Position numbers and translations under genes: made by a program
Source of the DNA: an uncultured Bacteroidales bacterium
GTDB taxonomy: Bacteria; Bacteroidota; Bacteroidia; Bacteroidales; UBA932
Length of the DNA stretch: 64,000 nucleotides
Assembly: GCA_944322585.1 (NCBI GenBank)
Contig: CALUPB010000012.1
Coordinates: 1 to 64,000, forward strand
Direction: 5' to 3'
Part shown: piece by piece, positions 7,496 through 20,431 of the stretch
Layout: each line of letters begins with the position of its first letter
Numbering within the stretch: the stretch's first letter is position 1
The notes under the pieces: model-generated
What the model saw: the letters and a program-made list of their open reading frames with translations, nothing else
Databases searched by the model: none
Told to the model about the DNA's origin: nothing

Positions 7496-8362
7496 TTATT
7501 TCTTTTTCGACAATTTTGAGGATGACTTCTCTATTTTCTTGTGCTCGGAAGCGACCCTGCGCTCCAGTTTCTTTATATCTTCAGCAGGCGGCAATTCTTC
7601 AGGACGAATACCGCGCTGCCCAAGCATATCGCGGACACTCTTATTGTTCTGCATATGCTCTACGGTGATAGCTTTTTCTCCATACAGATCTTTACCCTCT
7701 ACATTGTAGTTGGTCATCTCCGTAGCAAGATTCTTTGCAGCAATGGTAAGTGTCGGAAGGAAATCAGCCAATGGCCTGTTATCCTTAACCCCAAGACGAC
7801 TCTTCATATCTTCCGTAGTATGACCGCCAAACAGGACTGCATCACCCTTTGAGCGGATTCGGCCAAAACCCTTGTCATCTACGCCTCTTTCATAAATATT
7901 CTGTGAAAGCTGCTTCTCTGAAGCCCTTAGCCTATCGCGAGACTCTAATCGCGCAATATAGTTGATGCGTTCCTCAATCAGCTCCGCCTTTCTGGTCTGT
8001 ACGGCAAAATAACTTTGGGCAAAAGCAATTTCCTCCTTTTTCGGGTCACCATTTTGGGCAATCAGATAACACGCATATCGGGTAAGCATATAATCCTTGA
8101 TTTCCCTTTCGGAACCACTGCCGAGTTTAACCATTTTCGTGACCTCACGAAAATGGTCGTCTACATTGATATTCTGACTATTACAAGATTCTACCGCTCT
8201 GTTGATAGCCGTCAGGAAATTCTCCCATCTGGCATATCCAAGTACCTGCTGCAAGTCACGGGCAAACCAGACCTCCACCTGCTCCTTGCCGTTATCACTC
8301 TCAATATAGGTAGCAATAGCATCAAACGCTCCCTTGTACTGTATTATACTCTGTTTGTCCAT
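7496..8362 (-). CDS. dinD: DinD-like DNA-damage-inducible protein
   Basis: This encodes 288 residues similar along the length to DinD (DNA-damage-inducible protein D), with an N-terminal BRO-N-like domain (VWFARDLQQVLGYARWENF, about 32-50) and a conserved C-terminal half (DKGFGRIRSKGDAVLFGGHTT). E. coli DinD inhibits RecA-driven strand exchange; in Bacteroidota the gene often travels on mobile islands and its role is not settled. The C-terminus is lysine-rich. A perfect palindrome lies within the coding sequence (8132-8155, encoding HFREVTKM). The gene appears intact, in contrast to its neighbours. I see no SOS-type operator that I could name with confidence. Confidence 0.85.
   Translation of the reverse strand: MDKQSIIQYKGAFDAIATYIESDNGKEQVEVWFARDLQQVLGYARWENFLTAINRAVESCNSQNINVDDHFREVTKMVKLGSGSEREIKDYMLTRYACYLIAQNGDPKKEEIAFAQSYFAVQTRKAELIEERINYIARLESRDRLRASEKQLSQNIYERGVDDKGFGRIRSKGDAVLFGGHTTEDMKSRLGVKDNRPLADFLPTLTIAAKNLATEMTNYNVEGKDLYGEKAITVEHMQNNKSVRDMLGQRGIRPEELPPAEDIKKLERRVASEHKKIEKSSSKLSKKK
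8132..8155. repeat. 24-bp palindrome, copy 1 (within dinD)
   Basis: Same sequence as 7450-7473; here the pairing extends to 28 bp (8130-8157, ACC...GGT). Confidence 0.9.
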
Positions 8363-8571
8363 AACAAATAAACCGTTAACCCAACAAATTTACCGAATAT
8401 TCTCCAACGATATGTCAGATTCTCCATGTTTTCTGCGCATACCTACAACCCGTCCGCCCAACTCAGCGGCGTCAGCCGTGCGCCCGGGGCTCCGCTACGC
8501 TCGCTCTGCTCCGAATCCCACAAGACTCCCGGACGGTCCTCTGTCCCAGCGGTGTTCGCTCCGCTTCTCAG

Positions 8572-8782
8572 TAACCTTTCTGTTCTGAATGGTGATGTTG
8601 AGTCTCTGTTTCTGCGGATGTCTTACTGCCGTCTGTGTCTTTGCATCCCAATACTCCGGGAGGAACTTTATGCCGAGAGGAATGAGCGCGGTTCTGCCGT
8701 ACATACAGATTGATAGCTTCAGTGGTGCTTCTGTTCCATGGGCGTAGGCTCTTGTATCAAGATACGGTTTGGTCGTTGTCAT
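8572..8782 (-). pseudogene. Tyrosine integrase, N-terminal fragment
   Basis: From the ATG at 8782 the frame reads MTTTKPYLDTRAYAHGTEAP, ALIPLGIKFLPEYWDAKTQ and NITIQNRKV, the arm-binding domain of Bacteroidetes tyrosine recombinases. Similarity ends at about residue 70; the SAM-like and catalytic domains are absent and the frame runs on into GC-rich sequence of other origin. The gene starts about 140 bp from the 14-bp attachment core at 8924, the same side and orientation as the intact integrase has relative to 18353. This suggests an older element integrated at the same tRNA site. Confidence 0.75.
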
Positions 8783-8923
8783 TTTTTTGCAGGTATTTTG
8801 CAGGTATTCTTATGCAAAAAAGTGCAGAATTGCGCAAAAAATGAAGATTTTTGATAAGAAAAAAGCCTTATAAATCAGCGATTATTTTACTTATTGAGAT
8901 TGATTTAGAATGCTTTAGAAACA
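8783..8923. other. AT-rich end of the older element
   Basis: The region upstream of the integrase fragment contains repeated ACCTGCAAAA-type strings on the minus strand (TTTGCAGGTATT twice on the plus strand at 8787-8810), possibly arm-type integrase sites. No gene. Confidence 0.4.
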
Positions 8924-8937
8924 ATCCGGTTGGGATT
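8924..8937. other. attL core of the mobilizable element
   Basis: ATCCGGTTGGGATT is repeated perfectly at 18353-18366 within the 3' end of tRNA-Arg. The two copies bound a 9.4-kb segment with integrase, relaxase and replication genes. Confidence 0.8.
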
Positions 8938-8957
8938 AAGCCTCGTAGAGGCTTTTT
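8938..8957 (+). terminator. Terminator-like hairpin at left end of the element
   Basis: AAGCCTC-GTA-GAGGCTT followed by TTT. It directly abuts the attL core and would insulate the element from outside transcription. Confidence 0.55.
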
Positions 8958-9622
8958 CCCTGTTCCTGCGCCACGGGCGATCTTACATAAGCCCCGCATA
9001 ATGTGCCAGGCTGCGCCTGCCTTTTCCATATCATACCTTCCAGTCCCTGAGCGAGCTCCGGGCCTGTCCGCTCTGGCACGGAAAACGCCTGACAGGAGTC
9101 AGGCGCATTATGTTTTCCATGTGATCCGCTTGGTATCTGAAAATAGCTCTTTTTATTACCAAATATCAAGCGATATCTTGTTCTGTATCAGAGTCTTCCG
9201 ACATTCAATAACGATGTTCGATTTGAGCGAGTAACACAATGCGGTAACACGGTTTATGATCACTCACAGTGGACTCTCTTAGTCCATCCTGATTGCAAAG
9301 ATACATTTTTTCTTTTGATTTGCGGTTCTTTTCATGGGGCTAAATCTTGCTTTTGTTTCTTTTGCGACAACAATTTTCATGTTCCGCAGCCTTACTAAGC
9401 CATATTTGGGGATGTCTATTTGTTACATTAATGGACTGATAATTAGATTTTAAGTATGATTTATAGTATGAAATCATACTCGATTTATAAATAGCTATAA
9501 AATCCGGCAGTAAAGTGTTGTGAATTTTGTTTTTTAGCAGACTTACCATGTACCTTTGTGTCGCTGCCCGGCTGAAAGGTACCGCAATCGGAAGCAAATT
9601 GTCTCACTAAAATTACAGAATT
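8958..9622. other. Left non-coding end of the mobilizable element
   Basis: No convincing gene. Visible structure: a perfect hairpin GCCTGAC-AGGA-GTCAGGC (9091-9108), CATAATG/CATTATG outer arms around 9000 and 9110, a repeated GTAACACAATGCGGTAACAC motif (about 9229-9250), and TATCTTTG on the minus strand (9303-9296). These could be integrase/excisionase sites or a small RNA; see findings. Confidence 0.5.
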
Positions 9623-9847
9623 ATGAAACAAGAACATTATATTAAGGTCGTGAACGATGTGGTTCATCGGATGGAAAGACACGCCGATATCGTGATGAAC
9701 GTAAAACAGGTGGCAGAATATCTCGGCTTGTCTGTCGGAGCCGTCCGCAAACGCTGCCAACGCAAACAGTTACCCTATCATCTCAATGCCAAGCATCTTT
9801 ATTTCAGCAAACTTGAAGTGGATGCAGCATTACTTGACCGAAAATAA
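9623..9847 (+). CDS. Helix-turn-helix protein, excisionase-like
   Basis: This 74-residue protein carries a MerR/excisionase-type DNA-binding domain: MNVKQVAEYLGLSVGAVRKR (about 26-45) followed by a YHLNAKHLYFSKLEVDAALL wing. Proteins like this are common first genes of Bacteroidales mobilizable elements, where they help excision or regulate mobilization. Its TAA lies just 1 nt before the start codon of the replication protein, so the two are co-transcribed. The role as excisionase is inferred from position and fold. Confidence 0.75.
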   Translation: MKQEHYIKVVNDVVHRMERHADIVMNVKQVAEYLGLSVGAVRKRCQRKQLPYHLNAKHLYFSKLEVDAALLDRK

Positions 9848-9848
9848 G

Positions 9849-10577
9849 ATGGGCATACGTTCTTTTGACTATATGGGGCAATTCTGGAGAGAGAATGAAA
9901 TGCAGACGTTCTCAGCAAGGGAAACGCAACTGTATTTCTTTCTTTTGGCAGAATGCAAACGCCGATATTGGCAAGCCTCTTTCGGATGCAGCACGCAACG
10001 AATTACCAACAATCTCGGCATAAGCCGCCAGACACTCTGCCGGTTGAGGAAGAAACTGCAAGACCGTGGACTTATCGCTTACGAAGAGGGAAAAAACAAT
10101 TCCTCTATTCCCGGCTACACTCTTTTAATAAAGGTGGACACCAACAAAACGGTACAGCGAAATATGACAGCAAATGGAACACTGGATGGAACGGCAGCCG
10201 GAACCATTATAAACAGTATAGACAAAATAAATAAATCTATTATTCCTAAAGAGAAACCGCTCCATTTAAACGACTTGCAGGCTCTTTTGTACGCTGACAA
10301 CAAATGGTTGGGCAACGTGAAGGAATATGCGAACCAGCATGGAATAGAAGTGGACGACATGAAGATACAGGAAATGCTTGGAGAGTTCTTTCTTTATCTC
10401 CGGACATGCGGCATCCAGTCTAAATCGCCAGCCGATGCGCAGCAGCATTTTGTAAACTGGTTGATGAAAAAAGGGAATAACAGAGACTACAGGCAGAAGG
10501 CTCATCCTGCTTGGCAAGTCGGCGTAAAACTGACTGACGACAATCCGGACAAATTCAAAAACACATCAGAATGGTAG
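9849..10577 (+). CDS. Replication initiator-like winged-helix protein
   Basis: The 242-residue product has an N-terminal winged-helix region (SFDYMGQFWRENEMQTFSAR, then STQRITNNLGISRQTLCRLRKKLQDRGLI at about 47-75) and a C-terminal helical part ending in a DnaD-like or primosomal-type segment. In related mobilizable elements the gene in this place initiates replication of the excised circle together with the DnaC-like ATPase that follows. I use the ATG at 9849 (MGIRSFDYMG); an upstream in-frame ATG lies within the preceding gene. Its 3' end overlaps the ATPase gene by 7 nt. Exact family is not certain. Confidence 0.65.
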   Translation: MGIRSFDYMGQFWRENEMQTFSARETQLYFFLLAECKRRYWQASFGCSTQRITNNLGISRQTLCRLRKKLQDRGLIAYEEGKNNSSIPGYTLLIKVDTNKTVQRNMTANGTLDGTAAGTIINSIDKINKSIIPKEKPLHLNDLQALLYADNKWLGNVKEYANQHGIEVDDMKIQEMLGEFFLYLRTCGIQSKSPADAQQHFVNWLMKKGNNRDYRQKAHPAWQVGVKLTDDNPDKFKNTSEW

Positions 10578-11176
10578 ATATTAATTCAGACAACAGAATA
10601 GATTTCAGAGCGGCAGTAAATTTCTTTGCCGAGCGAAAAGTGTGCCTGCAACCGCAACGGCTGCATATCCGTTTGCCCAATGCCAAAGAGGTATTGGATG
10701 CAGGATTGCGGCATTTCTTGGGCTGTAACTACATGTGGCAGCCCGAATACGATAAGGTCGTAGATTGGTTGACTGACAACAAAGGGCTTGGACTGTTCTG
10801 TATGGGCAACTGTGGCAGAGGAAAGACCACCATTTGTTTGCAAATACTTCCCTGCATTATACAGCACTATTTTCACAAAGTATTCTCCATCTGTCTGGCA
10901 CGCGAAATGAACCGACATTACACCGAAGTGATGCGTAGCCATCTGCTTGTGATTGATGACATAGGGCGTGAAGAACCCTATCAGGAATACGGCAACCACT
11001 TCAATGTGTTCCCTGATTTCGTGGACGATTGCGAAAGGAAGGGCAAATTCCTAATCACGAACACCAACTGCACGAAGGAACAGCTTGCAGAGAAATATGG
11101 GGAGCGTACCCTTTCCCGACTGAAAGCGACAACACGGTTAGTGGTTTTTGCAGGAGAGGACTTACGGCATGGATAA
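10571..11176 (+). CDS. DnaC-like AAA+ ATPase
   Basis: This 201-residue ATPase shows Walker A GNCGRGKTT (about residue 77) and Walker B LLVIDDIGRE (about 118), followed by a sensor-like LITNTN and a C-terminal RLKATTR arginine motif. The arrangement is that of DnaC/IstB-like helicase loaders. It overlaps the replication initiator gene and most likely loads the host replicative helicase onto the element's origin. The non-coding region downstream holds the candidate oriT. Confidence 0.78.
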   Translation: MVDINSDNRIDFRAAVNFFAERKVCLQPQRLHIRLPNAKEVLDAGLRHFLGCNYMWQPEYDKVVDWLTDNKGLGLFCMGNCGRGKTTICLQILPCIIQHYFHKVFSICLAREMNRHYTEVMRSHLLVIDDIGREEPYQEYGNHFNVFPDFVDDCERKGKFLITNTNCTKEQLAEKYGERTLSRLKATTRLVVFAGEDLRHG

Positions 11177-11189
11177 ATGCTGGGCTTGC

Positions 11190-11445
11190 CCAGATATAGC
11201 CCACTATAACTTCTCCGCTACGCTCCGAAGTTGTGGGCTCTCCCGAGGGGCTTATGGCTCTGCCCTAAGAACCCGGCAAGGGCTTTCAGCCCTGTGCAAC
11301 CCAACCAAAGAGTGACCCTCTCTTTGGAAACTCCGCTTAGTGGCTTCCACCCCTAAGAACCCGGAGCAGGAAGTGACCCTCTCCCTGCACCCTCCGATTA
11401 AGGCTCCGCCCTAATAACCCGAAGTGAAACTCAAAATACAGACAA
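11190..11445 (+). other. Candidate oriT: hairpin-rich region before the relaxase
   Basis: Several inverted repeats lie in series: CCCACTATAACTTC / GAAGTTGTGGG (about 11200-11231), AGGGCT-TTC-AGCCCT (about 11279-11293), CCAAAGAG / CTCTTTGG around a GTGACCCT loop (about 11304-11325) and GCAGG / CCTGC around the same GTGACCCTCTC loop (about 11365-11386). CCCTAAGAACCCGG occurs twice and CCCTAATAACCCG once. MobV relaxases normally nick close upstream of their own gene, so this is the best oriT candidate. The nick site itself cannot be fixed from sequence alone. Confidence 0.55.
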
Positions 11446-11449
11446 GCCT

Positions 11450-12979
11450 ATGGCACAGAAGACATCCATCAACATCAAGCCGTGCAACATCGGCAGCAGC
11501 GAAGCGCATAACAAGCGGACAGCGGAATACCTCGCCAATATCCGCAAGGAGAAGTTCTACATCCGTACCGACCTCATGGCAGGAAACGAGACATGGGTAT
11601 CACCAGATTTCGGCGAAGCCACGCTCACCGACCGCTACAATCAGATAGCCGCAATGGTCAAGGAAAAGACAGGTCGGGCGATGCAGACCAAAGACCGGGA
11701 AAGGGTGAACAAGAAGACTGGTAAGGTGACCATCGTCCGTGGCAGCACTCCGCTCAAGGAGGGCGTGGTCGTCATCAAGGACGACACCACGATGGAACAG
11801 CTGCGGCACTTCTGCGAGGTGTGTAAGCAGAGTTGGGGAATCACAGCCCTGCAAGTGTTCATCCACCGTGACGAGGGACATTACGGAATACCCGGCGACA
11901 ATGCCACATGGAAGCCCAACTTCCATGCTCACATCGTATGGGACTGGATGAACCACGATACGGGAAAGTCCTGCAAACTGGACGAGAAAGCCATGAGTGA
12001 GATGCAGACGGTTTTGGCTGAGTGTCTTGATATGGAAAGGGGCACCTCAAAGGAGGTGACGGGCAAGAAACATCTGGAGCGCACGGACTTCATCATCGCC
12101 AAGCAGAAACAGGAAGCGGAACAGGCGAAAGCCGCAAGGCAAGCAGCCATCGCCGCCAAGGAGGAAGCCGAAGCGGAACTTTTATTCGTGGAGGGCGAGA
12201 ACAAGGCGAAAGAGCAGTACCGCCATTCCCTCGACAGCGAGATTGCCGAAAAGGAGAAACAGTTAAAAGACGAGCGAAAGGCAAAAGTGGACAGCATACT
12301 GGACAGCTTCGGCAGCCTTGTCGGGGTCGGCAAGTCCGCAGCGGTCGAAAAGGAAAATGCCAAATTGAAAGCCGAGAACGAGCGCATGAAGAAAGCCTTT
12401 GCCGAAGCCGTAAAGGAAAAGGCGGAAAAACGGACAAAGGCATTGGTCGCAGAAAAGCAGAAAGCCGAAGCGGAGCGTGACAGGGCTTTGGTGCAAAGCC
12501 GCTCTCTTGGCATGGAAAGGGACAAGGCACTGCGGCAGCTTCAGGAACAAAAGGACGGCGAGCGGCAGCGCATCAGCCAAGCGGTAAATCAGGCCACGGC
12601 GGAGAAAGACAAGACCATCCGCCTGTTGCAAAGTACGCTCAAAGCGAGTAGGCATATTCTGAACGTGCTTGCCGATATGCTTTACAAGGCAAGCGAGGTA
12701 TTTAGGCGAGCCATTGATGCGATTATCCATTTCGGCACGGAGCAGCACAAGTCGTTCTTCGCCCCGTCCGAAGCCGCCGACATCAAGAGCGTGATGCAGG
12801 AGTACGGAGAAACGACCGAACAGCAGAATATGGTCGGCGCATGGCTTTGTGACTATGCGGAGAGACGACAGCCAGTTGATGGAATAAAACATCGCCATAC
12901 ACTTAAAGAGGTTGGCGATGTGGCAGATGGAAAATATGACTGGAAAATCAATTCTATACAAAATAATATCAGAATGTAA
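11450..12979 (+). CDS. MobV-type relaxase
   Basis: This 509-residue protein nicks oriT and pilots the strand during mobilization. The N-terminal catalytic domain (about 1-215) has the Mob/Pre signature: the His-rich block VFIHRDEGHYG and the metal site FHAHIVWDW (about 160-172). No catalytic tyrosine motif of the MobA type is obvious, consistent with MobV. Residues about 225-400 are a long Ala/Glu/Lys/Arg coiled coil, and the C-terminus is a small globular tail. The gene directly follows the candidate oriT and is divergent in direction from the cargo operon downstream. Related mobilizable elements in Bacteroidales use the transfer apparatus of co-resident conjugative transposons. Confidence 0.85.
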   Translation: MAQKTSINIKPCNIGSSEAHNKRTAEYLANIRKEKFYIRTDLMAGNETWVSPDFGEATLTDRYNQIAAMVKEKTGRAMQTKDRERVNKKTGKVTIVRGSTPLKEGVVVIKDDTTMEQLRHFCEVCKQSWGITALQVFIHRDEGHYGIPGDNATWKPNFHAHIVWDWMNHDTGKSCKLDEKAMSEMQTVLAECLDMERGTSKEVTGKKHLERTDFIIAKQKQEAEQAKAARQAAIAAKEEAEAELLFVEGENKAKEQYRHSLDSEIAEKEKQLKDERKAKVDSILDSFGSLVGVGKSAAVEKENAKLKAENERMKKAFAEAVKEKAEKRTKALVAEKQKAEAERDRALVQSRSLGMERDKALRQLQEQKDGERQRISQAVNQATAEKDKTIRLLQSTLKASRHILNVLADMLYKASEVFRRAIDAIIHFGTEQHKSFFAPSEAADIKSVMQEYGETTEQQNMVGAWLCDYAERRQPVDGIKHRHTLKEVGDVADGKYDWKINSIQNNIRM

Positions 12980-13084
12980 ATGAGATGATGTACCTTAAAA
13001 GTACACCACCAAACGTACAATATCTGAATAGATGTGAGTTTGCTTCTTCCACTTCAAAAAATGGGTACTTAGTAAAGTTTCAAA

Positions 13085-13726
13085 TTATTTATTGCTTCCA
13101 AACACCTTGCTGACAAATTTATATGCCCTTCTTTCACCTGTTTCAGGATGTGTCCAGTCGGCATCCTTGGGAATAGATATGACAATAATGGCATACTTAT
13201 AACAGACTTCTTCATTATCCAATATATCGTAAAAATCTTGGTCAGTCAAAGACACCCCTCTCATTGGATAACGCAACCCACTCCATGTGAAATCAATCTT
13301 AGCCTTGCCATAATCATTTTTATAAAGTCTGACATCTGAAACCAATAATATAGATTCAGACGGTTGAGTTACATTTTCCAGTTCATCCTCTCTCAAATAC
13401 GAATAACCGTTATTCCAAAAGCCATGATAGCCATATTCCCTGAAAGCTTGCACAACTCTCTTCATTGACTCTGTACCAATCTTTCTACAAGAATGATTGT
13501 CAATCACCCAGTTCTCTTTTTGTTTACCCTGTGGCATCGAACGACCGTCAAACTCTATCACATCAAGCGGTTGGGCAAAATCAATCTCATGCCCTTGTAC
13601 TGCACCAGCTTGACCGTCATCACGTACAATACGAATCCACTCTTTAGGATTATCTAAATCAATGCCACCAGGGCATAATCCTCCGTTCTTGCAACTGACA
13701 GCAAGAAGAAAAACTCGCTTTTTCAT
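13085..13726 (-). CDS. Dual-OB domain protein (cargo gene 4)
   Basis: The 213-residue product begins KRVFLLAVSCKNGGLCPGG, followed by EWIRIVRDDG and HEIDFAQPLDVIEFDG; the pattern looks like the family annotated as dual OB-containing domain, which is predicted to bind nucleic acid. No signal peptide or membrane segment is present, so it is cytoplasmic. Its ATG overlaps the stop of the second DUF488 gene (TAATG), making it the last member of a tightly coupled four-gene operon. The family name is my recollection and moderately sure; a catalytic motif is not evident. Confidence 0.55.
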   Translation of the reverse strand: MKKRVFLLAVSCKNGGLCPGGIDLDNPKEWIRIVRDDGQAGAVQGHEIDFAQPLDVIEFDGRSMPQGKQKENWVIDNHSCRKIGTESMKRVVQAFREYGYHGFWNNGYSYLREDELENVTQPSESILLVSDVRLYKNDYGKAKIDFTWSGLRYPMRGVSLTDQDFYDILDNEEVCYKYAIIVISIPKDADWTHPETGERRAYKFVSKVFGSNK

Positions 13727-14190
13727 TATAGGTTTCCTCCGAATTTAATATCGTTTCTAAATTTATTGAGAAGCATCTCGCTAAGAACTCTTCTGTGACA
13801 CTTTTCGTTTGTCGGCTCAGAGCATAGCAGCACAACATTTTCATACTTTCCAAATTCTTCAACAAAGTTGGAAATATTGGATTTGTATTCAAGCTGTTTC
13901 CTATATGCCACCTCAAATAATTTGTAATCCTTACTCATAGGACAAGACTTATCTCTAACCTCTTTCAGTAATTCCTTAGTCGGTGCCAAGTCCACACGGT
14001 GTTTATATTTACAGCCATTTGCCAATTCTGAAAGGAAATACGGTAAATCTTGCTCAAATGCAAAGCGTGATAATTGCCCATTAGGATTAAGTCGTACATC
14101 CACAAGGCAATCAATCTTGTTTGCCTTGATGATTCCAAAAAACTCTTTTGCAGTTTTTTTTGTAAAGCCAATGTTGAATAAGTTAATCAT
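13726..14190 (-). CDS. DUF488 protein, short form (cargo gene 3)
   Basis: This is a 154-residue DUF488 protein: NLFNIGFTKKTAKEFFGIIK, CLVDVRLNPNGQLSRFAFEQ and VVLLCSEPTNEKCHRRVLSE. The DVR and C-(S/A)-E-x-x-x-x-C-H-R blocks are the family hallmarks and the Cys/His/Arg cluster looks like an active or metal site. Its start overlaps the previous DUF488 gene by 8 nt and its stop overlaps the next ATG. The biochemical role of DUF488 is unknown to me. I chose the ATG at 14190; a longer frame reaches back into the upstream gene. Confidence 0.78.
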   Translation of the reverse strand: MINLFNIGFTKKTAKEFFGIIKANKIDCLVDVRLNPNGQLSRFAFEQDLPYFLSELANGCKYKHRVDLAPTKELLKEVRDKSCPMSKDYKLFEVAYRKQLEYKSNISNFVEEFGKYENVVLLCSEPTNEKCHRRVLSEMLLNKFRNDIKFGGNL

Positions 14191-14962
14191 AGTTCTCGGT
14201 ATTATTGTAGTTAAACCTTTTCCATCCATGTAATAAATTCCAATATCTATCGCAGAAGTCATAGAGCTTTTCTTGCTCGGTATTTCCGAAATAATTATCA
14301 AGGATTTCTTCCTTGAACATCATGTTCAGAACTTTTTTCTTTTCGCAAACGAATATTTCAAGTTGCTTATCCAAATCCGAGTTTGATATAAAGTAGATTC
14401 CACCATCAGGCTTTTCGACGATATGCCTCACTTCAAGCCAGTCACCGTATCTTTGTTCAAGTGCTTTGCTCACCAAAAAATATCTATGGCAATCCATCGG
14501 TTTCTTTTCGCTGCACATCAAGCACAAGGTGTAATTTTTGTCATACGCATCTTCAATGCGTTTTAATCCGCTTACAAAATGCTCATCATGCCTAAATTTA
14601 CGAAAATCTACAATCTCATCCGAACCAAGCAATTCTGTTTTCTCTGGACGATAACTTTTTGCTATGGGGAAAACCTCTTGCTCGAAGAAGATGTCCGCTG
14701 CCTTAGAAAATACCTCTTGCTGACTACTGGCTTTGGCACCAATTTCCGGCATATTCATGTATGGTATGCCCAATTCCTTTCCTGCAATCTTCATGTTATC
14801 TGCATTGCATTGTGGATATTGCTTGGAAAAAGGAACAGAACGCACATCTATCAAAAAATTTACACCATGTTCTCTTAATGTATCAAACAAATGGTTGACA
14901 TCTATGATATTACCTTTTTGAAATAAGGTGTAACCAACTGTATAAATGTATTTTTTATCCAT
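14183..14962 (-). CDS. DUF488 protein, long form (cargo gene 2)
   Basis: The 259-residue product is a second DUF488 protein. It starts YIYTVGYTLFQKGN, has FLIDVRSVPFSKQYPQCNAD (about 36-55), IPYMNMPEIG and LCLMCSEKKPMDCHRYFLVS (about 148-167), all diagnostic for DUF488. The C-terminal 80 residues are extra compared with the short paralog and include a KPDGGIYFISNSDLDKQLE segment of unknown role. It overlaps the FkbH-like gene upstream by 8 nt. Two diverged DUF488 paralogs adjacent to each other suggest a heteromer or substrate division of labour; that is inference. Confidence 0.82.
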   Translation of the reverse strand: MDKKYIYTVGYTLFQKGNIIDVNHLFDTLREHGVNFLIDVRSVPFSKQYPQCNADNMKIAGKELGIPYMNMPEIGAKASSQQEVFSKAADIFFEQEVFPIAKSYRPEKTELLGSDEIVDFRKFRHDEHFVSGLKRIEDAYDKNYTLCLMCSEKKPMDCHRYFLVSKALEQRYGDWLEVRHIVEKPDGGIYFISNSDLDKQLEIFVCEKKKVLNMMFKEEILDNYFGNTEQEKLYDFCDRYWNLLHGWKRFNYNNTENYD

Positions 14963-16367
14963 TGCAATATTCTTTTAGATTGGTATTAAGTTGCATGTCG
15001 TTTATCGACTGCCTGTTTGGAACAAAACATATATTTCCATCTTTATCATTCTCTATAAAAATATCTTTATACTTGTCTATCAACTCAATGGCTTTTCCAT
15101 TAAACCCAGTATCATCGAAAGCTAATGTTATAGTACGATTATTTGCTAAAGCAAAAATGTACATCAAGATGTATTCTTCAAGTCCAATTTCAAAATACCT
15201 ACAGCTGATAGCCCAGTTTAGTACATGGATATTCTGTTTGTTCTCCGCATAAGTTACCGCAGAACAAACTCCCAAGTTTTCACCGTTACTTCTATATATC
15301 TCAAAAATTAGAGACCTGCATTTTTCGTAATGCTTTTTTTCTGAAAACTTGAATTGATTGGACTTTGCATAAAGGCGCATGGCTTCCACATGGTTTATGT
15401 CATCACTAACCTTGACAAGTAACTGCGGAAGATAACTTTTCTCACGTTCTTGCTGTAAGACCGCATATAATCGTTTACGATTTCTTGACTTCAACGAAAG
15501 CTCAAATCTATCAAAGACACCACAAGTTAAAAGTAAAGTTAGAAGTTCATCATGATTATCCCAATCAGGAACAAACACCTCTGGCAAGTTTTGTCTTACC
15601 TCGTCACGAACTATTTTGTTATCATCGATAAAAACGCAAGCACTTGTTAATATTGATAACTTTTGTGCTATGGCTTTTATGTTTTTGCTCTTATCGTTAT
15701 AATTGGCGACAATACAGTCTATTTGACCTTTAAGAGGAAATTCATTCTCATCAAGCCTATCAATGGCAGACAGAACTTTTTCATTGTCATTGCGTGAGCA
15801 TATTGCAATGTACAACCCAAGCTCTTTCGCTAAGGCTTGTATGAAACGCATAAACCCAATAAACGGAATTGCATCATTTGAAAGGAGATTTTGTTTGATT
15901 GCATCGATACCATCTTCTGCAAGAGTCCCTTTCCATATCGTATCGTCAAGGTCAAGAATGACAGCCTTATACACAATCTTGGACTTGCACATAATCTGTG
16001 AAATGATTTGCATAACCAGTATTCCGACAATGGAAATTCCCGTTTTACTTGACAAATATATTGTCGATACAAAGTTTTCTATCTTGTATCCAAAAAATTC
16101 ATCATTTGCGTTCCCTCTAATAGTATATTCTACTTGTATTTCATCTATGGTATCTTGCCCGTTGGATATTGTCACTTCAAAACCATACGTTTGCAATTTG
16201 CGAAGAAGAAAGGACAAATCATGGTCGTCTGCAGCAATAAAACCTGCAACACCACCTATATTAACTATGTAATTGCTTGTGATGAAGTTGCGAAATTTCC
16301 TTACATAGTTGTTGATGTAAACATCTATGTATTTGTTAACTGGTGACTCTATTTCTGTCATAATCAA
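14955..16367 (-). CDS. FkbH-like HAD phosphatase/acyltransferase (cargo gene 1)
   Basis: This 470-residue protein combines a HAD phosphatase domain of subfamily IIIC (motif I AVILDLDDTIWKG at about 135-147; SRND; motif III FIDDNKIVRDE at about 230) with a C-terminal GNAT-like part (MRLYAKSNQFKFSEKKHY, ISCRYFEIGLEEYIL). That is the FkbH layout, known from polyketide pathways where it makes glyceryl-ACP from 1,3-bisphosphoglycerate. No acyl-carrier protein or synthase lies nearby, so the substrate here is likely different. An N-terminal region (1-130) is of unknown type. It is the first gene of the cargo operon, preceded by a leader of about 245 nt with a long hairpin. The start may be 16367 or 16361. 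Confidence 0.72.
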   Translation of the reverse strand: MIMTEIESPVNKYIDVYINNYVRKFRNFITSNYIVNIGGVAGFIAADDHDLSFLLRKLQTYGFEVTISNGQDTIDEIQVEYTIRGNANDEFFGYKIENFVSTIYLSSKTGISIVGILVMQIISQIMCKSKIVYKAVILDLDDTIWKGTLAEDGIDAIKQNLLSNDAIPFIGFMRFIQALAKELGLYIAICSRNDNEKVLSAIDRLDENEFPLKGQIDCIVANYNDKSKNIKAIAQKLSILTSACVFIDDNKIVRDEVRQNLPEVFVPDWDNHDELLTLLLTCGVFDRFELSLKSRNRKRLYAVLQQEREKSYLPQLLVKVSDDINHVEAMRLYAKSNQFKFSEKKHYEKCRSLIFEIYRSNGENLGVCSAVTYAENKQNIHVLNWAISCRYFEIGLEEYILMYIFALANNRTITLAFDDTGFNGKAIELIDKYKDIFIENDKDGNICFVPNRQSINDMQLNTNLKEYCNG

Positions 16368-16414
16368 AACATTGTCTCCCAGTCCCCGAAGACCTCATAT
16401 TATTTTACACCAAA

Positions 16415-16555
16415 GCGTGGAACTGCGATGCCACGTCTGATTGGAGGTCGTAGGAAAAACCTGTGCACGGATATGGAAATAGCAGTCCACGCTATAGCGT
16501 GAGAACCACTATGCCATCTCTTGTGCACAATTGAAAATTTCCTACGTTTCCAATC
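16415..16555 (-). ncRNA. Structured leader or small RNA of the cargo operon
   Basis: Two hairpins lie between a TACCTTTG promoter and the FkbH-like gene. The large one spans 16439-16555: GATTGGA (16439-16445) pairs with TCCAATC (16549-16555), GTAGGAAA (16450-16457) with TTTCCTAC (16538-16545), GTGCAC (16463-16468) with GTGCAC (16523-16528), then ATGG/CCAT, ATAG/CTAT and CACGC/GCGTG at the tip. The small one (16416-16434) pairs CGTGG with CCACG. No open frame explains the conservation of pairing. I see no reverse transcriptase gene, so it is not an obvious retron. Confidence 0.6.
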
Positions 16556-16620
16556 ACAAGACAAGCATAACGCTTCTTTGATTTATCGTATGTCTGGCAA
16601 GAGTCGCCTCCAGCCAAATA

Positions 16621-16628
16621 CAAAGGTA
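16621..16628 (-). promoter_or_regulatory. Promoter of the cargo operon (TACCTTTG)
   Basis: TACCTTTG on the minus strand fits TAnnTTTG. Transcription would start near 16614 and pass through the hairpin region into the FkbH-like gene. Confidence 0.55.
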
Positions 16629-16811
16629 GTAAAATTCTAAGATAAACCATTTTATTCTGGGAAAAATCAACTATTTAAGCCTTATTTTATCACACAGTGG
16701 GATTTTACTACTCATTTCACCTCATATTCACAATTCACTTGTTTTTATAGTCAGCCAATAATTCCTCAAAATCTTTGTTATCCCAGATTCAATCAAAGTG
16801 ATTGATATCCA

Positions 16812-16838
16812 AGGGGGTGTCCATTTTGGTCACCCCCT
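16812..16838. terminator. G-tract hairpin 1 near integrase 3' end
   Basis: AGGGGGTG (16812-16819) pairs with CACCCCCT (16831-16838) over an 11-nt loop. A similar hairpin lies at 16888-16915. Both lie downstream of the integrase gene and could end its transcript, or serve as recombination sites. Confidence 0.5.
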
Positions 16839-16887
16839 ATTAGAAAATAAGAATCATCTATTAAAATGCGAATGGAGAATTACAAGA

Positions 16888-16915
16888 AGGGGGGGCGTCA
16901 TTTCAACGACCCCCT
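16888..16915. terminator. G-tract hairpin 2 near integrase 3' end
   Basis: AGGGGG plus CGT pairs with ACG plus CCCCCT, with a small bulge. Shares the AGGGGG ... CCCCCTAT frame with hairpin 1. Confidence 0.5.
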
Positions 16916-16957
16916 ATCAATATCAGCACTTTAGACTTTTATGTGGAATGGTCATCT

Positions 16958-18133
16958 TTATTTCCATGCCCTGAACATCTTATCCCCAATGTTCTGCGAA
17001 ACATATTGCATGGGCAGCTTTGCATAAATTTCAGTCGTCCTTATGGAAGTGTGCCCCATCATAATTTGTAGAACTTCTTTGGAAATGCCTTGCCCAAGAG
17101 CCACCGTACAGGCGAATGTATGACGGGCTATATGTGTGGTTAAAGGAAAAGAACAACTGAGAGCCAAGCCTATGCCTTTAAGAAATTGGTTGTACTTCTG
17201 ATTGGAGGTTATCTCCATCTTGTAGTTGTTTCGTTCCAATATCTTCCGCGTGATGGGTAGAATGGGCGTAACAAATTCATTCCCTGTCTTTATGCGATGC
17301 CCATCAATGTAGTCTTTGCCGTCAATAGAAACGACATGCTGGTCGTAATCAAACGATTTAGCATCGCTGTATGCCATGCCTGTGAACGTCTGGAAAAGGA
17401 AAAAGTCAAGATACCTGTTCATTACTGCATCTGTGCTTTCCTCCCGCATACGGATTAACTTTTTCAGTTGTGTTTCTGTGAGATGAGGGCGGTCGCTTTT
17501 CTCACCACGCTTGTCTTGAAAACGCTCGTAGGGGTTTTCTTTGATAAGCCCAAGACGGAAAGCCTCGGACACATACGACTTGAACCGCTTGTGGTAATTG
17601 TGGATGGCAGCCTGACTTCTGATGATTGGTTTCCCTTTGGTTGTGTAGGTCTGTTCTTCCCTTATGAAAAGGTCGAACTGATAGATGTGTTGCAGGGTTA
17701 CATCGTCAAAGGTCTTAAACTTACCGAACCGTTCAAGAGCCTTATAGGTGGTGAAATGCCCTTTACGAGTACCTTCACGAAGCGGACGGTTATTGATACG
17801 CTCCCTAAGCCAAGCCATGAAGTTACGTCGGTTGCCGCCGTCCGCACTCAAATAAGTTTTGAATTGAGAGATGGTCATGTCGTCCTTATTCACCTGCATG
17901 GCGATAAGGATATGCTCAAATTCGGTTACTTTCTTTTGGATGTCCTCGTTGATGACAACAGCACGAGGATGATTTACCACAGTTCCATTCTCCCATTGGG
18001 CAATGGTAACGCTATGTCCTGAATGGAAATAACAGCGTTCACGCTGTAAACAAACCACGATTTCGATAGCTCCTGCCACTGTTGCCGTGGCTTTCTTCTT
18101 CCGGTTGAAGAACAGTCTTACGTACTTACTCAT
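16958..18133 (-). CDS. int: Tyrosine recombinase (integrase) of the mobilizable element
   Basis: The 391-residue protein has an N-terminal arm-binding domain (about 1-90), a SAM-like core-binding domain (about 100-200, FMAWLRERINNRPLREGT) and a C-terminal catalytic domain. Catalytic residues visible are His-x-x-Arg in THIARHTFA, His in MGHTSIRTTEIYAK and the nucleophile Tyr in the same motif. The first catalytic Arg is not at its usual place: the motif reads TFTGMAYSDAKSF, the pattern of Bacteroides integrases related to IntDOT, which also lack that Arg. It starts 220 bp from the tRNA-Arg attachment core. Together with the HTH protein it should carry out integration and excision. Confidence 0.9.
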   Translation of the reverse strand: MSKYVRLFFNRKKKATATVAGAIEIVVCLQRERCYFHSGHSVTIAQWENGTVVNHPRAVVINEDIQKKVTEFEHILIAMQVNKDDMTISQFKTYLSADGGNRRNFMAWLRERINNRPLREGTRKGHFTTYKALERFGKFKTFDDVTLQHIYQFDLFIREEQTYTTKGKPIIRSQAAIHNYHKRFKSYVSEAFRLGLIKENPYERFQDKRGEKSDRPHLTETQLKKLIRMREESTDAVMNRYLDFFLFQTFTGMAYSDAKSFDYDQHVVSIDGKDYIDGHRIKTGNEFVTPILPITRKILERNNYKMEITSNQKYNQFLKGIGLALSCSFPLTTHIARHTFACTVALGQGISKEVLQIMMGHTSIRTTEIYAKLPMQYVSQNIGDKMFRAWK

Positions 18134-18310
18134 AATGGTAACACATTTGTGAGATTGGTAACACAGCTATGGTAACACAAAACCCGTCCAAAAGGGGATT
18201 TTTACGTCCAAGTGTGTCGCTTTTTCTCGTTTTTTTTGATGGTGTTACCACCTTGTATGCTGCTCAAAAAGAGAATGCAAAGAATTGAATGCCAGCAGCT
18301 TTGTGCAAAT

Positions 18311-18341
18311 TAAAAAGAAAAGGTCTTCACCATTGAAGACC
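18311..18341 (-). terminator. Terminator of tRNA-Arg
   Basis: GGTCTTCA (18322-18329) and TGAAGACC (18334-18341) form a perfect 8-bp stem; on the minus strand it is followed by TTTTCTTTTTA. It lies inside the mobile element, directly beyond the attachment core, so the element brings its own terminator for the tRNA. Confidence 0.85.
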
Positions 18342-18350
18342 TCTCTTCCG

Positions 18351-18424
18351 TGATCCGGTTGGGATTCGAACCCAAGACCCACAGCTTAGAAGGCTGTTGC
18401 TCTATCCAGCTGAGCTACCGGACC
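18351..18424 (-). tRNA. tRNA-Arg (anticodon TCT)
   Basis: The minus strand folds as a cloverleaf: acceptor GGTCCGG / CCGGATC, D-arm with AGCTCAGCTGGATAGAGC, anticodon stem ACAGC / GCTGT with loop CTTCTAA (anticodon TCT, reads AGA), T-arm with GGTTCGAATCC. The 3' CCA is not encoded. The 3' 16 nt overlap the attachment core of the mobilizable element. Confidence 0.97.
18353..18366. other. attR core within tRNA-Arg
   Basis: ATCCGGTTGGGATT, identical to 8924-8937; corresponds to the T-arm 3' side and acceptor 3' strand of the tRNA. Confidence 0.8.
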
Positions 18425-18513
18425 GATCCGTGTCGTGAGCAGTCGGAACGGGAATCGGCATCCACTCATGCAGCATGCCGTACCGTTTGCCCTTTCTCCG
18501 TAAAAAGAGACTG

Positions 18514-18541
18514 CAAAGATACTATTTATTTTGGATTGACA
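18514..18541 (-). promoter_or_regulatory. Promoter of tRNA-Arg
   Basis: TATCTTTG on the minus strand (18521-18514), preceded after about 18 nt by a TTTTG stretch, 90 bp before the mature tRNA 5' end. Confidence 0.6.
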
Positions 18542-18597
18542 AAACAAAAAATTGTCAGTACAGAAGCATGTCAGATTATCCCTCAAAAATCCATGGT

Positions 18598-18776
18598 CTG
18601 CGTAAGAGCTTGCAGAAAATCCGAGTCTCGTTAAATCCGAGCCTGTGGAAAATCCGGGTTTGCAGAAAATACTGGTTGACAGGATATCCGAGTGGCGTAA
18701 AATCATGACTTGCGTAAAATCATGACTTGCGTAAATCCGGACGGGTGGAAAATCGGGGAGGCAGAAAGCCCGGGCC
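18598..18776. repeat. Degenerate 17-bp minisatellite
   Basis: Units of the form GCGTAAAATCATGACTT are repeated: two are perfect neighbours near 18695-18729, and about eight others are recognisable as GCAGAAAATCCGAG, GGAAAATCCGGG or GCGTAAATCCGGAC. The array fills the gap between tRNA-Arg and the DUF368 gene. Confidence 0.7.
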
Positions 18777-18793
18777 GGCTGGATATGCCGCGA

Positions 18794-19771
18794 CTATCTG
18801 TTTTTCCTCCTGCTGATGTATGTGCTGACGGTCTCGATTACGGTAACGAGCAGGAAGCCTATGAGGGCAAAACATACCGCTCCGGCAATGTGATAGTCGA
18901 TCATGCCTGCATACTGCGCGGAAAGCTCTTTCCAAACGGGGGCTGTCATTTCTGCGATTTCAGGATATTGCGAGGCTGCTACTGTCACCATGTCGCTCCA
19001 TGGCCACACCTTTACAAGGGAACCGATTATGAAACCTGCCAATGCAAGCAGCGTCGGTCTGTGGTAGCCGGCGAGAAGCCAGTGAAGGAATTTCGAAAAG
19101 GCAATGATTCCCGCCAGGGCTCCGGCGGCGAAGATAATCAGGATGACGAAATCCATGGGTACACCGTCGCCGGACACTATCTTTGCTACTGTCCCCATCA
19201 TGTATTCATATTTACCGAGGATGAGCAGTATGAAACTGCCGCTGATGCCGGGAAGTATCATCGCACAGATGGCTATGGCTCCGCAAAGGAATATGAACCA
19301 CAGTCCGTCCGGAGTTTCGGTAGGAGACAGGGTACATACGACCGCCCCTGTAACTATGCCGATTGCCAGCATGACGATGTCTCTGAATTTCCATCCTTTG
19401 ATGTCCTTGAGAATGAATATCGAGGAAGCCACGATCAGTCCGAAGAAAAAGGCCCAGGTCTGTACCGGATGATGTTCGAGCAGGTATGTCATGAGTTTTG
19501 CGAGAGACAATATGCTGACGAGTATTCCCGCTATTAAAGACAGAAGGAAATTGCCGTTGATATGTTTCCAGAATTCCTTGAATTTTCCGGAAAACAGCAG
19601 TTTCATGGCAGTGGTATTTATGGCGTTTATGGAACCTACCAGTTCCTCGTATATTCCTGTCATGAAAGCTATGGTGCCTCCGGAGACTCCTGGTATCACG
19701 TCGGCGGCTCCCATGCATATGCCCTTGACTGTCACGAAAAGGTAGTCGGTCAATTTTTTCATTTTTGCCAT
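18794..19771 (-). CDS. DUF368 membrane protein (PopT-type polyprenyl-phosphate transporter)
   Basis: This 325-residue protein has about nine hydrophobic segments and starts with the DUF368 signature VKGICMGAADVIPGVSGGTIA (about 14-34), repeated in weaker form at MILPGISGSFILLILGKYE (about 195). The family includes PopT, which flips undecaprenyl phosphate back across the cytoplasmic membrane for cell-wall and glycan synthesis. It is the last gene of a likely operon with the PfkB kinase and DUF6913-like genes upstream (36-bp gap). The start at 19771 or at the next Met (19762) are both possible. No terminator is evident before the minisatellite. Confidence 0.85.
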   Translation of the reverse strand: MAKMKKLTDYLFVTVKGICMGAADVIPGVSGGTIAFMTGIYEELVGSINAINTTAMKLLFSGKFKEFWKHINGNFLLSLIAGILVSILSLAKLMTYLLEHHPVQTWAFFFGLIVASSIFILKDIKGWKFRDIVMLAIGIVTGAVVCTLSPTETPDGLWFIFLCGAIAICAMILPGISGSFILLILGKYEYMMGTVAKIVSGDGVPMDFVILIIFAAGALAGIIAFSKFLHWLLAGYHRPTLLALAGFIIGSLVKVWPWSDMVTVAASQYPEIAEMTAPVWKELSAQYAGMIDYHIAGAVCFALIGFLLVTVIETVSTYISRRKNR

Positions 19772-19807
19772 TTATGTGAAAGGTTTATTGTGATCTGAAC
19801 TCGGGGA

Positions 19808-20431
19808 TCAGGCGTGTTCGATTTTTTCAATGAGATCTGCGGCAGCGAGAAATATCTTTTCCGGTACCGGCCGGGCATCTTTCAGGACATTCCTTTTTCC
19901 CGTTCCGGCAGAGGCTGGAACGGGAATTTCCGTTGTCCCGTCAGGGCTTTCCTGACCCTGCTGTATGCCGTTCTCCGGTTCTGCTACTATTAGGTTGAAC
20001 GGATCTCCCTCAAATGTGTTCCTGCCGATCTTGAACCTTGCCTTTGCCGCTTTCGACAGATATTCTGTGCAGTAGGAACTGTCATTGGCAAGGCATATGA
20101 ACAGGTCTACGGGTTTGCCAGTCACAATGTAAGCCTTCCTGAGGTCGGGCCGTCCGAACCAGTTTAGATCCCTCCGTGTGACTGTAGATGCCCTGTCGGT
20201 CGTCATCCTTACTTTGCTGCTGAATTTCCTGAAATCCATGAAAAGGACAGACAGGGACATCCTGTGGCGGCTGCAATAGTTCCGGATACATCCAAGACAT
20301 GTGTCATACCCTGGTTCGGAAGCATCGATTACGACTGCGATCGAATGTATTTCGTCCAGTGGAATAAACCCGGTGGGGATTGTACTGCCGTCTTTCCTGA
20401 GACGTCTTTTCCTGAAGAAATTCTTGAACAT
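19808..20431 (-). CDS. DUF6913-like protein of unknown function
   Basis: The 207-residue product begins MFKNFFRKRRLRKDG, typical of a Bacteroidales-specific family that I believe is DUF6913. Blocks HSIAVVIDAS and FICLANDSSYCTEYLSKAAKARFKIG are well formed. The C-terminus contains a hydrophilic, low-complexity stretch (EPENGIQQGQESPDGTTEIP, about 157-180) that looks like an insertion before the final helix PEKIFLAAADLIEKI. I start at 20431 rather than further upstream because the longer frame overlaps the kinase gene. No enzymatic motif recognised. It lies between a PfkB kinase and a PopT-like transporter in one transcription unit. Confidence 0.6.
   Translation of the reverse strand: MFKNFFRKRRLRKDGSTIPTGFIPLDEIHSIAVVIDASEPGYDTCLGCIRNYCSRHRMSLSVLFMDFRKFSSKVRMTTDRASTVTRRDLNWFGRPDLRKAYIVTGKPVDLFICLANDSSYCTEYLSKAAKARFKIGRNTFEGDPFNLIVAEPENGIQQGQESPDGTTEIPVPASAGTGKRNVLKDARPVPEKIFLAAADLIEKIEHA

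Follow-up and report, generated by a model that had tools for sequence, protein, structure and literature searches.

Why should four tightly packed genes, for a FkbH-like HAD protein, two DUF488 proteins (DUF488a and DUF488b) and a dual-OB (DuOB) protein, travel together as the cargo of a mobile element, and what is the folded RNA that lies ahead of them? The operon in question occupies the minus strand (13085-16361) of a 64,000-nucleotide stretch of DNA from an uncultured Bacteroidales bacterium (contig CALUPB010000012.1; below, this whole stretch is "the window"). Profile matches and gene order give a first answer: the operon is the DUF488-DUF488-DuOB triad catalogued as PDC-M45, with a FkbH-like HAD/acyltransferase placed in front of it, behind a promoter element and a leader that are common to many unrelated genes. 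A fuller answer, to which we would assign a probability of about 0.5, is that a mobilizable element carries this PDC-M45 plus FkbH operon, that the leader would control its translation, and that its proteins would make a modification directed against invaders.

A catalogued triad with an added gene

The first-pass annotation of this DNA described four minus-strand genes, AT-rich and overlapping successively by 8, 8 and 1 nt; the coordinates agree, and the GC content of the operon is 0.364, against 0.502 for the whole window. Its family names (FkbH-like HAD, two DUF488 proteins, dual OB) are borne out by profiles of Pfam, NCBIfam and PADLOC. In PADLOC, the models matched by DuOB, DUF488a and DUF488b are PDC-M45A, B and C, respectively, and it is because of this designation as a defence candidate that a defence-type role of the operon is plausible.

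Are the four genes a set, or an accident of one genome? The annotation proposed a linked set, and a search for co-occurrence finds linkage rather than scattered genes. Searching with the FkbH-like protein, which reached close relatives only, returned 11 genome loci with 49-98% identity in the best segment; the order FkbH-DUF488a-DUF488b-DuOB is kept in all 10 of the relatives with readable downstream DNA (the contig of L032 ends inside its FkbH gene, and this locus was left out of the count; L025 has a DuOB gene truncated by the end of its contig, and L026 a FkbH gene divided between two frames). DuOB itself is found in 12 of 393 genomes of the window's order, all 12 with both DUF488 genes adjacent and some with DuOB as the first gene; a phylum-wide sample has it in 10 of 395 genomes, the window's own included. 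Seven of the nine other genomes of that sample have both DUF488 genes (one of those in L145 being a 79-aa piece); L144 has DUF488a only, beside a DuOB gene with a stop, and L151 has DuOB without any DUF488 gene. Altogether, both DUF488 genes adjoin DuOB in 19 of 21 distinct DuOB genomes, in one of them partly as a fragment, and FkbH is present in three. Because of this disparity, the stable unit is, by these counts, the DUF488-DUF488-DuOB triad, and FkbH is an addition to it. Searches of plasmids and phages gave no match to DuOB; the FkbH search of plasmids gave 107 records, all below 60% identity and none covering 80% of the query. At one locus (L143:15-1358) an open reading frame (ORF) for a UvrD-type helicase lies directly upstream of the triad.

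Does the added gene belong with the triad functionally? That FkbH is a passenger, unconnected in function to its neighbors, is a doubtful proposition: missing from 18 of the 21 DuOB genomes as it is, FkbH stands first, in most cases overlapping DUF488a, in each of 12 readable loci besides the window (the 10 relatives, L136 and L137), and nine aligned sequences retain its active-site motifs. These nine sequences (of 14 loci) share invariant DLDDT, SRN, DDN, NQF and SCR, which we take to be the signatures of HAD and FkbH enzymes, NQF and SCR presumably being the FkbH features; DLDDT, the catalytic motif of the HAD-IIIC phosphatase domain, is intact in all nine. The HAD-IIIC profile scores 49.6 bits, above its cut-off of 35.75, and the match to the FkbH profile spans residues 133-413. 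An AlphaFold model (mean pLDDT 74.6, pTM 0.50) finds its best match in a Bacteroides HAD protein (3slr) and lower ones in several GNAT acetyltransferases, all at low TM-scores and with unrelated matches among them; searching solved structures with the FkbH profile gives a single match, again 3slr. The DUF488 proteins keep signatures of their own: in 11 chosen aligned sequences of each, DUF488a retains CSE..P..CHR and DUF488b retains C.E and CHR, and both have DxR and the paired-cysteine motif C.E..CHR, for which we assume a catalytic role in DUF488 enzymes. No solved structure matches the DUF488a profile at E below 0.1.

Acyl chemistry also meets the triad in another form. At L134 (368-4499), where the triad is without FkbH, the gene after DuOB encodes a fusion of an acyl-carrier protein (ACP)-like domain with LnmK (129.8 bits for LnmK; cut-off 100), and a gene for a Fic-domain protein follows as well. 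The annotation's remark that no ACP is encoded nearby agrees with a Pfam scan of nine ORFs in the region; this relative's operon, for its part, has the ACP-like fusion. Since FkbH and ACP-like/LnmK are both found beside the triad, these few cases suggest a modification of the acyl type. On the reading preferred here, FkbH would make an activated small hydroxyacyl group (by the chemistry of its family, glyceryl from 1,3-bisphosphoglycerate), and the DUF488 pair, guided by DuOB, would attach or process that group at nucleic-acid ends or nucleotides: this would be the anti-invader modification. One can also think of the operon as a metabolic or small-molecule (competition) pathway, in which FkbH chemistry builds an acylated nucleotide-like compound and phages play no part. 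FkbH and LnmK are, after all, families named for polyketide-type acyl chemistry (PMC3679948, in part of its text). Such a pathway is unlikely here: PADLOC's models name the triad a defence candidate, DuOB is patchily distributed (12 of 393 genomes of the order) and sits here on a mobile element, and the four genes fill the interval between relaxase and integrase, which has no space for more pathway genes.

A leader shared by many unrelated genes

A single promoter and a folded leader had been placed ahead of the operon by the annotation. The promoter is recognizable as a TAnnTTTG element, which we take to be a promoter consensus, and the fold holds up as well: positions 16358-16620 have a folding energy of -92.8 kcal/mol (z -5.1), which none of 200 shuffles equalled. 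What was missed is that this leader, a structured RNA of ~175 nt, is shared with many unrelated genes. In the first DNA search of plasmid records only the leader and the tRNA matched; the leader matches are in Bacteroidales records, and the downstream genes differ where they are annotated. An Rfam search of window positions 8000-20000 at E <= 1 hit nothing besides the tRNA, which also drew one weak match, and seven leader loci gave no match at E <= 0.1.

A covariance model (R1) built from 29 copies, with the incomplete copy L050 and L025 left out, finds the leader in 116 of 393 genomes of the window's order at E <= 0.001 and, in a phylum-wide sample, in 11 of 296 genomes at E <= 1e-6, the window's own included; copy numbers are lower bounds, seven candidates being scored per genome. 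The first set of copies comprises 72 on the sense strand, left from 83 leader matches in 74 sources when L050 (47.6 bits) and 10 antisense matches are dropped. A held-out set comprises 40 further copies from the R1 match list, all re-found with R1, of which 39 were tested (L185, at a contig end, was dropped); it shares the model and partly the genomes of the first set, and three of the 39 share at least 95% identity with some first-set copy along a minimum of 140 nt. TAnnTTTG lies upstream of the leader in 61 of the 72 copies, against 3.6 expected in shuffled upstream sequence, and in 29 of the 39 held-out copies, against 2.5 by shuffling. The window's own genome has two weaker copies (G000:C4:6011-6176, 65 bits; G000:C1:262417-262603, 57 bits).

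Is the leader tied to the FkbH operon? It precedes eight of 14 such operons; the other six (L029, L030, L031, L033, L136 and L137) gave no leader match, and a tie to this operon alone is ruled out. Three of the 72 copies have no ORF behind them; the first ORFs of the remaining 69 fall into 45 similarity clusters, 36 of them singletons (two of these being stubs at contig ends). Among the first ORFs are those for DarT, MUN-1 beta-lactamase, an aminoglycoside-transferase-like protein, TerB, an MBOAT protein and TPR proteins; 10 were scanned with Pfam, two of them without a family. The first ORF starts 42-58 nt after the leader core in 41 of the 69 copies and in 26 of the 39 held-out copies. A relaxase or integrase relative lies within 10 kb of the leader in 18 of the 72 copies (as judged with ten query proteins, often with only 2 kb of upstream DNA), and mobility is to that extent apparent for a minority of copies. 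On a Bacteroides uniformis plasmid (L035:7010-8188) the same leader stands ahead of the MUN-1 beta-lactamase gene, beside a MobV relaxase gene.

The leader as RNA

Does the leader matter as RNA or as DNA? RNAalifold, applied to 29 copies, predicts 43 pairs, 19 of them with two-sided changes. In an unfitted alignment read on the operon strand, G.U cells (170) are far commoner than A.C cells (18), which points to selection of the leader as RNA of that strand. Beyond the core, a hairpin (P4) precedes the start codon, and its loop pairs with a segment of the core to make a pseudoknot. The core segment is CAGTTCC in 41 of 72 copies and has 21 forms in all; the pairing score of the 72 copies is 1042, against 914 +/- 16 after swapping segments between copies (0 of 2000 permutations; one version of the test dropped 4 duplicates, leaving 68). 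Covariation of the P4 stem, tested only on copies with a good and well-placed loop match (42 of 72 in the first set, 26 of 39 in the held-out set), scores 532 against 398 +/- 17 (0 of 5000). Since these permutations do not control relatedness, the held-out copies were gathered and retested, with 579 against 456 +/- 16 for the pseudoknot (39 copies; 0 of 5000) and 362 against 238 +/- 15 for P4 (26 copies; 0 of 5000). Pseudoknot and P4 lie outside R1, and their held-out tests are consequently independent of how copies were found; that of the core fold is not. For the core, an unfitted alignment of 38 held-out copies (L168 left out) reproduces the closing stem, the P2 strands and the tip; of its 28 pairs, 8 show two-sided changes, and the middle helix predicted from the 29 copies is absent. 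A possible alternative pairing, TATGCT/AGCATA, of the kind that the two mutually exclusive folds of a translational attenuator would call for, scores 988 against 945 +/- 9 (0 of 5000), relatedness being uncontrolled and a held-out repeat lacking. Core, P4 hairpin and pseudoknot are thus each supported by covariation.

The hairpins might nevertheless matter as DNA, for example as a recombination or integration site at which cargo is swapped. A long arm palindromic enough for matches on both strands would suit such an element, as would two arrangements of the leader. At L042 (6055-7676) tandem leader copies stand ~1.5 kb apart, each with its own genes, like stacked cargo units. At L027 (600-6990) a 5' leader fragment with the promoter element is followed by ~6 kb with an integrase relative, and then by the promoterless leader of a FkbH operon; an element inserted near GCGTTATG seems to have divided this leader, and no clear direct repeat for the insertion stood out among the 20 largest of 47 families. 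That the leader is primarily a DNA element is, all the same, quite improbable, and a purely DNA role was rejected: the excess of G.U over A.C cells, the conservation of promoter element and start-codon spacing, and the covariation of pseudoknot and P4 stand against it.

Switch or steady support?

A nearly invariant ATG in the leader core opens a frame that closes by codon 10 in 44 of 45 distinct ATG-bearing copies (27 and 19 of 45 for the other frames) and in 32 of 34 distinct held-out copies (14 and 12 of 34). Its commonest peptides, MLIL, MLVL and MLILYLKT, account for 57 of 97 ATG-bearing copies. Structure could explain part of this closure, the codon-9 stop lying inside a pairing strand; a 4-9-codon upstream ORF in the core is suggested. 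A group of divergent leaders (L102-L106 and L116-L120) is without the upstream ATG (TTTAGCTT or similar standing instead) and mostly without TAnnTTTG; several of these copies have the pairing loop before the start codon.

How might the leader act? The core would fold, and the loop of P4, which ends 12 nt before the AUG, would pair back into it (CAGUUCC/GGGACUG). Because this loop near the AUG pairs into the core, the access of ribosomes to the start codon could depend on the folded state of the core; the likeliest trigger would be the passage or stalling of a ribosome on the upstream ORF. On the best reading, the leader is cargo-independent and probably acts on translation. A more ambitious proposal, which we put forward only tentatively, makes of it an undescribed cargo-independent RNA switch: its micro-ORF would sense translation stress and free the translation of whatever gene follows, bringing defence, resistance and surface genes on the order's mobile elements under common control. 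Alternatively the leader does not switch at all. A constitutive device, with a folded 5' end that protects the mRNA and assures reliable translation of new cargo in any host of the order, would accommodate the diversity of the downstream genes (45 clusters among 69 first ORFs), the kept promoter element and the regular distance from core to first ORF, and is a serious possibility, if somewhat short of an even chance; a conserved long-range pseudoknot at the start codon, together with a possible upstream ORF, seems excessive for a stabilizer.

Several results weigh against the joint reading of a leader-controlled operon that makes an acyl-type modification: 1) The FkbH-like protein scores 102.9 bits with NCBIfam TIGR01686, below the cut-off of 146.65, and only three of the 21 DuOB genomes, all from the window's order, have FkbH. 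2) The Pfam scan of nine ORFs in the region found no ACP gene; the ACP part of the L134 fusion is weak (14.4 bits, cut-off 20.8), and that fusion occurs in one of the 21 genomes and at none of the other 20 loci searched. 3) The DUF488b model matches nothing in the PDB at E <= 0.001, its weak structure matches being mostly methyltransferases, e.g. CbiL and diphthine synthase. 4) Twelve of the 72 copies are without the upstream ATG, as are 2 of the 39 held-out ones, and an apparent compensation between codon-5 and codon-9 stops (19/24 versus 7/21 in the first set) did not repeat in the held-out set (11/20 versus 9/17) and was discarded. 5) Six consecutive pseudoknot pairs are missing in 23 of 68 distinct first-set copies, and the pseudoknot and P4 permutations ignore relatedness among copies.

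Should the leader be a switch, a single RNA element would help to explain the expression of many mobile Bacteroidales genes in their new hosts, and a 5' untranslated region ready for testing comes with it. The operon is a candidate defence module that can be tested in its native expression setting and that is linked, in a few genomes, to acyl chemistry.

The element and its coordinates

The annotation assigned the operon to the cargo slot between relaxase and integrase genes. The integrase is recognized by Pfam. The gene on the other flank gave no match in a Pfam scan; the name "relaxase-like" is owed only to a two-step similarity, first to a gene of L003 (40% identity) and from there to an annotated MobV relaxase in L035. 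The whole is probably a mobilizable element inserted at tRNA-Arg and carrying one cargo operon. Because a 14-bp sequence from the 3' end of that tRNA gene (18353-18366) is repeated exactly at 8924-8937, an element of ~9.4 kb bounded by these repeats is suggested.

Table 1. Features of the operon, its leader and the surrounding element (window coordinates).
Feature	Position	Strand	Basis
DuOB protein (PDC-M45A), 213 aa	13085..13726	-	Pfam PF22557, 119.6 bits, E 2.5e-34; PADLOC PDC-M45A, E 1.6e-12
Second DUF488 protein (DUF488b, PDC-M45C), 154 aa from ATG 14190	13726..14190	-	DUF488, E 1.1e-18; PDC-M45C, E 2.1e-35 (both obtained with the longer ORF from TTG 14301)
First DUF488 protein (DUF488a, PDC-M45B), 259 aa	14183..14962	-	DUF488, E 6.2e-18; PDC-M45B, E 1.1e-26
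FkbH-like HAD + GNAT-like acyltransferase, 468 aa from ATG 16361 (TTG start also at 16367)	14955..16361	-	HAD-IIIC above cut-off, FkbH below; invariant motifs; model matches at low TM-scores
P4 hairpin just before start codon (GTCTTC/GGAGAC), whose loop GGGACTG (16380-16386) supplies the 3' pseudoknot strand	16374..16393	-	Stem covariation
Leader RNA core (model R1); P1 16570-16576/16412-16418, P2 arm 16538-16546/16449-16457	16410..16582	-	182 bits; covariation
5' pseudoknot strand CAGTTCC	16419..16425	-	Permutation tests
Possible upstream ORF, ATG CTT GTC TTG TGA (MLVL)	16554..16568	-	Suggestive only
TAnnTTTG promoter element, TACCTTTG	16621..16628	-	Upstream of leader
Tyrosine integrase of the element	16958..18133	-	Pfam Phage_integrase
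Relaxase-like gene	11450..12979	+	Two-step similarity to MobV relaxase
tRNA-Arg (TCT), probable integration site	18350..18424	-	tRNA and repeat of its 3' end
Probable distal attachment repeat of tRNA-Arg 3' end	8924..8937	+	14-bp exact repeat of 18353-18366

Relation to known systems

By its proteins the operon is a variant of PDC-M45, a phage defence candidate of PADLOC-DB: models A, B and C are matched by the contiguous DuOB, DUF488a and DUF488b, respectively, and none of the models by the FkbH-like protein; the comparison is one of protein models. The annotation knew of no described system of this composition, and as far as searched this is right for the four-gene form; for the triad it is superseded by the catalogue entry. 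PDC-M45 is named in no paper found in the open-licence literature searched, where the matches to DuOB are unrelated; no paper found there pairs DUF488 with dual OB, and DUF488 with rhodanese gave only an unrelated one. Burroughs and Aravind, in 2023, reportedly assigned DUF488 to a rhodanese-phosphatase superfamily and predicted that DUF488/DuOB systems process nucleic-acid ends in conflicts; those systems share their protein families with the operon. The term "phage defence candidate" denotes, in part of PMC11514479, PADLOC genes that hint at a wider, unrealised reservoir of resistance systems, and an archaeal DUF488 fused to a CTP-binding ParB fold appears in part of PMC12704722. In polyketide pathways, according to a portion of PMC3679948, 1,3-bisphosphoglycerate is loaded on ACP as glyceryl-ACP, and a FkbH-like protein is assumed to be important there. 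With polyketide FkbH proteins the window's protein shares a HAD-IIIC domain above cut-off, the HAD motifs and the NQF and SCR motifs; it differs in falling below the FkbH cut-off and in having no ACP among the nine ORFs scanned around it.

The leader is apparently uncharacterised as a regulatory RNA, rather than never seen. Literature searches yielded no title evidently describing it among the titles listed. Fremin and Bhatt (2021; PMC8040213, in part of its content) report 3161 automated structured-RNA candidates, among them HMP2_4078, HMP2_4205 and HMP2_1881, Bacteroidetes candidates 108-132 bp long that lie close to genes for integrase, TPR or radical-SAM proteins, with HMP2_4078 and HMP2_4205 described as palindromic; compared by description only, pieces of the leader may be among these candidates. 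Two other leaders, likened to it by description, offer further parallels. In the toiL upstream ORF of E. coli topAI-yjhQ (PMC12121999), a short upstream ORF and leader structure control a toxin-antitoxin gene; the corresponding ORF of the window leader is suggested only. The Bacteroides tetQ attenuator (Wang et al. 2005, as tabulated in PMC5418344) is likewise the 5' leader of a gene on a mobile element, and is listed as translational; the leader of the window's type differs from it in serving many unrelated genes.

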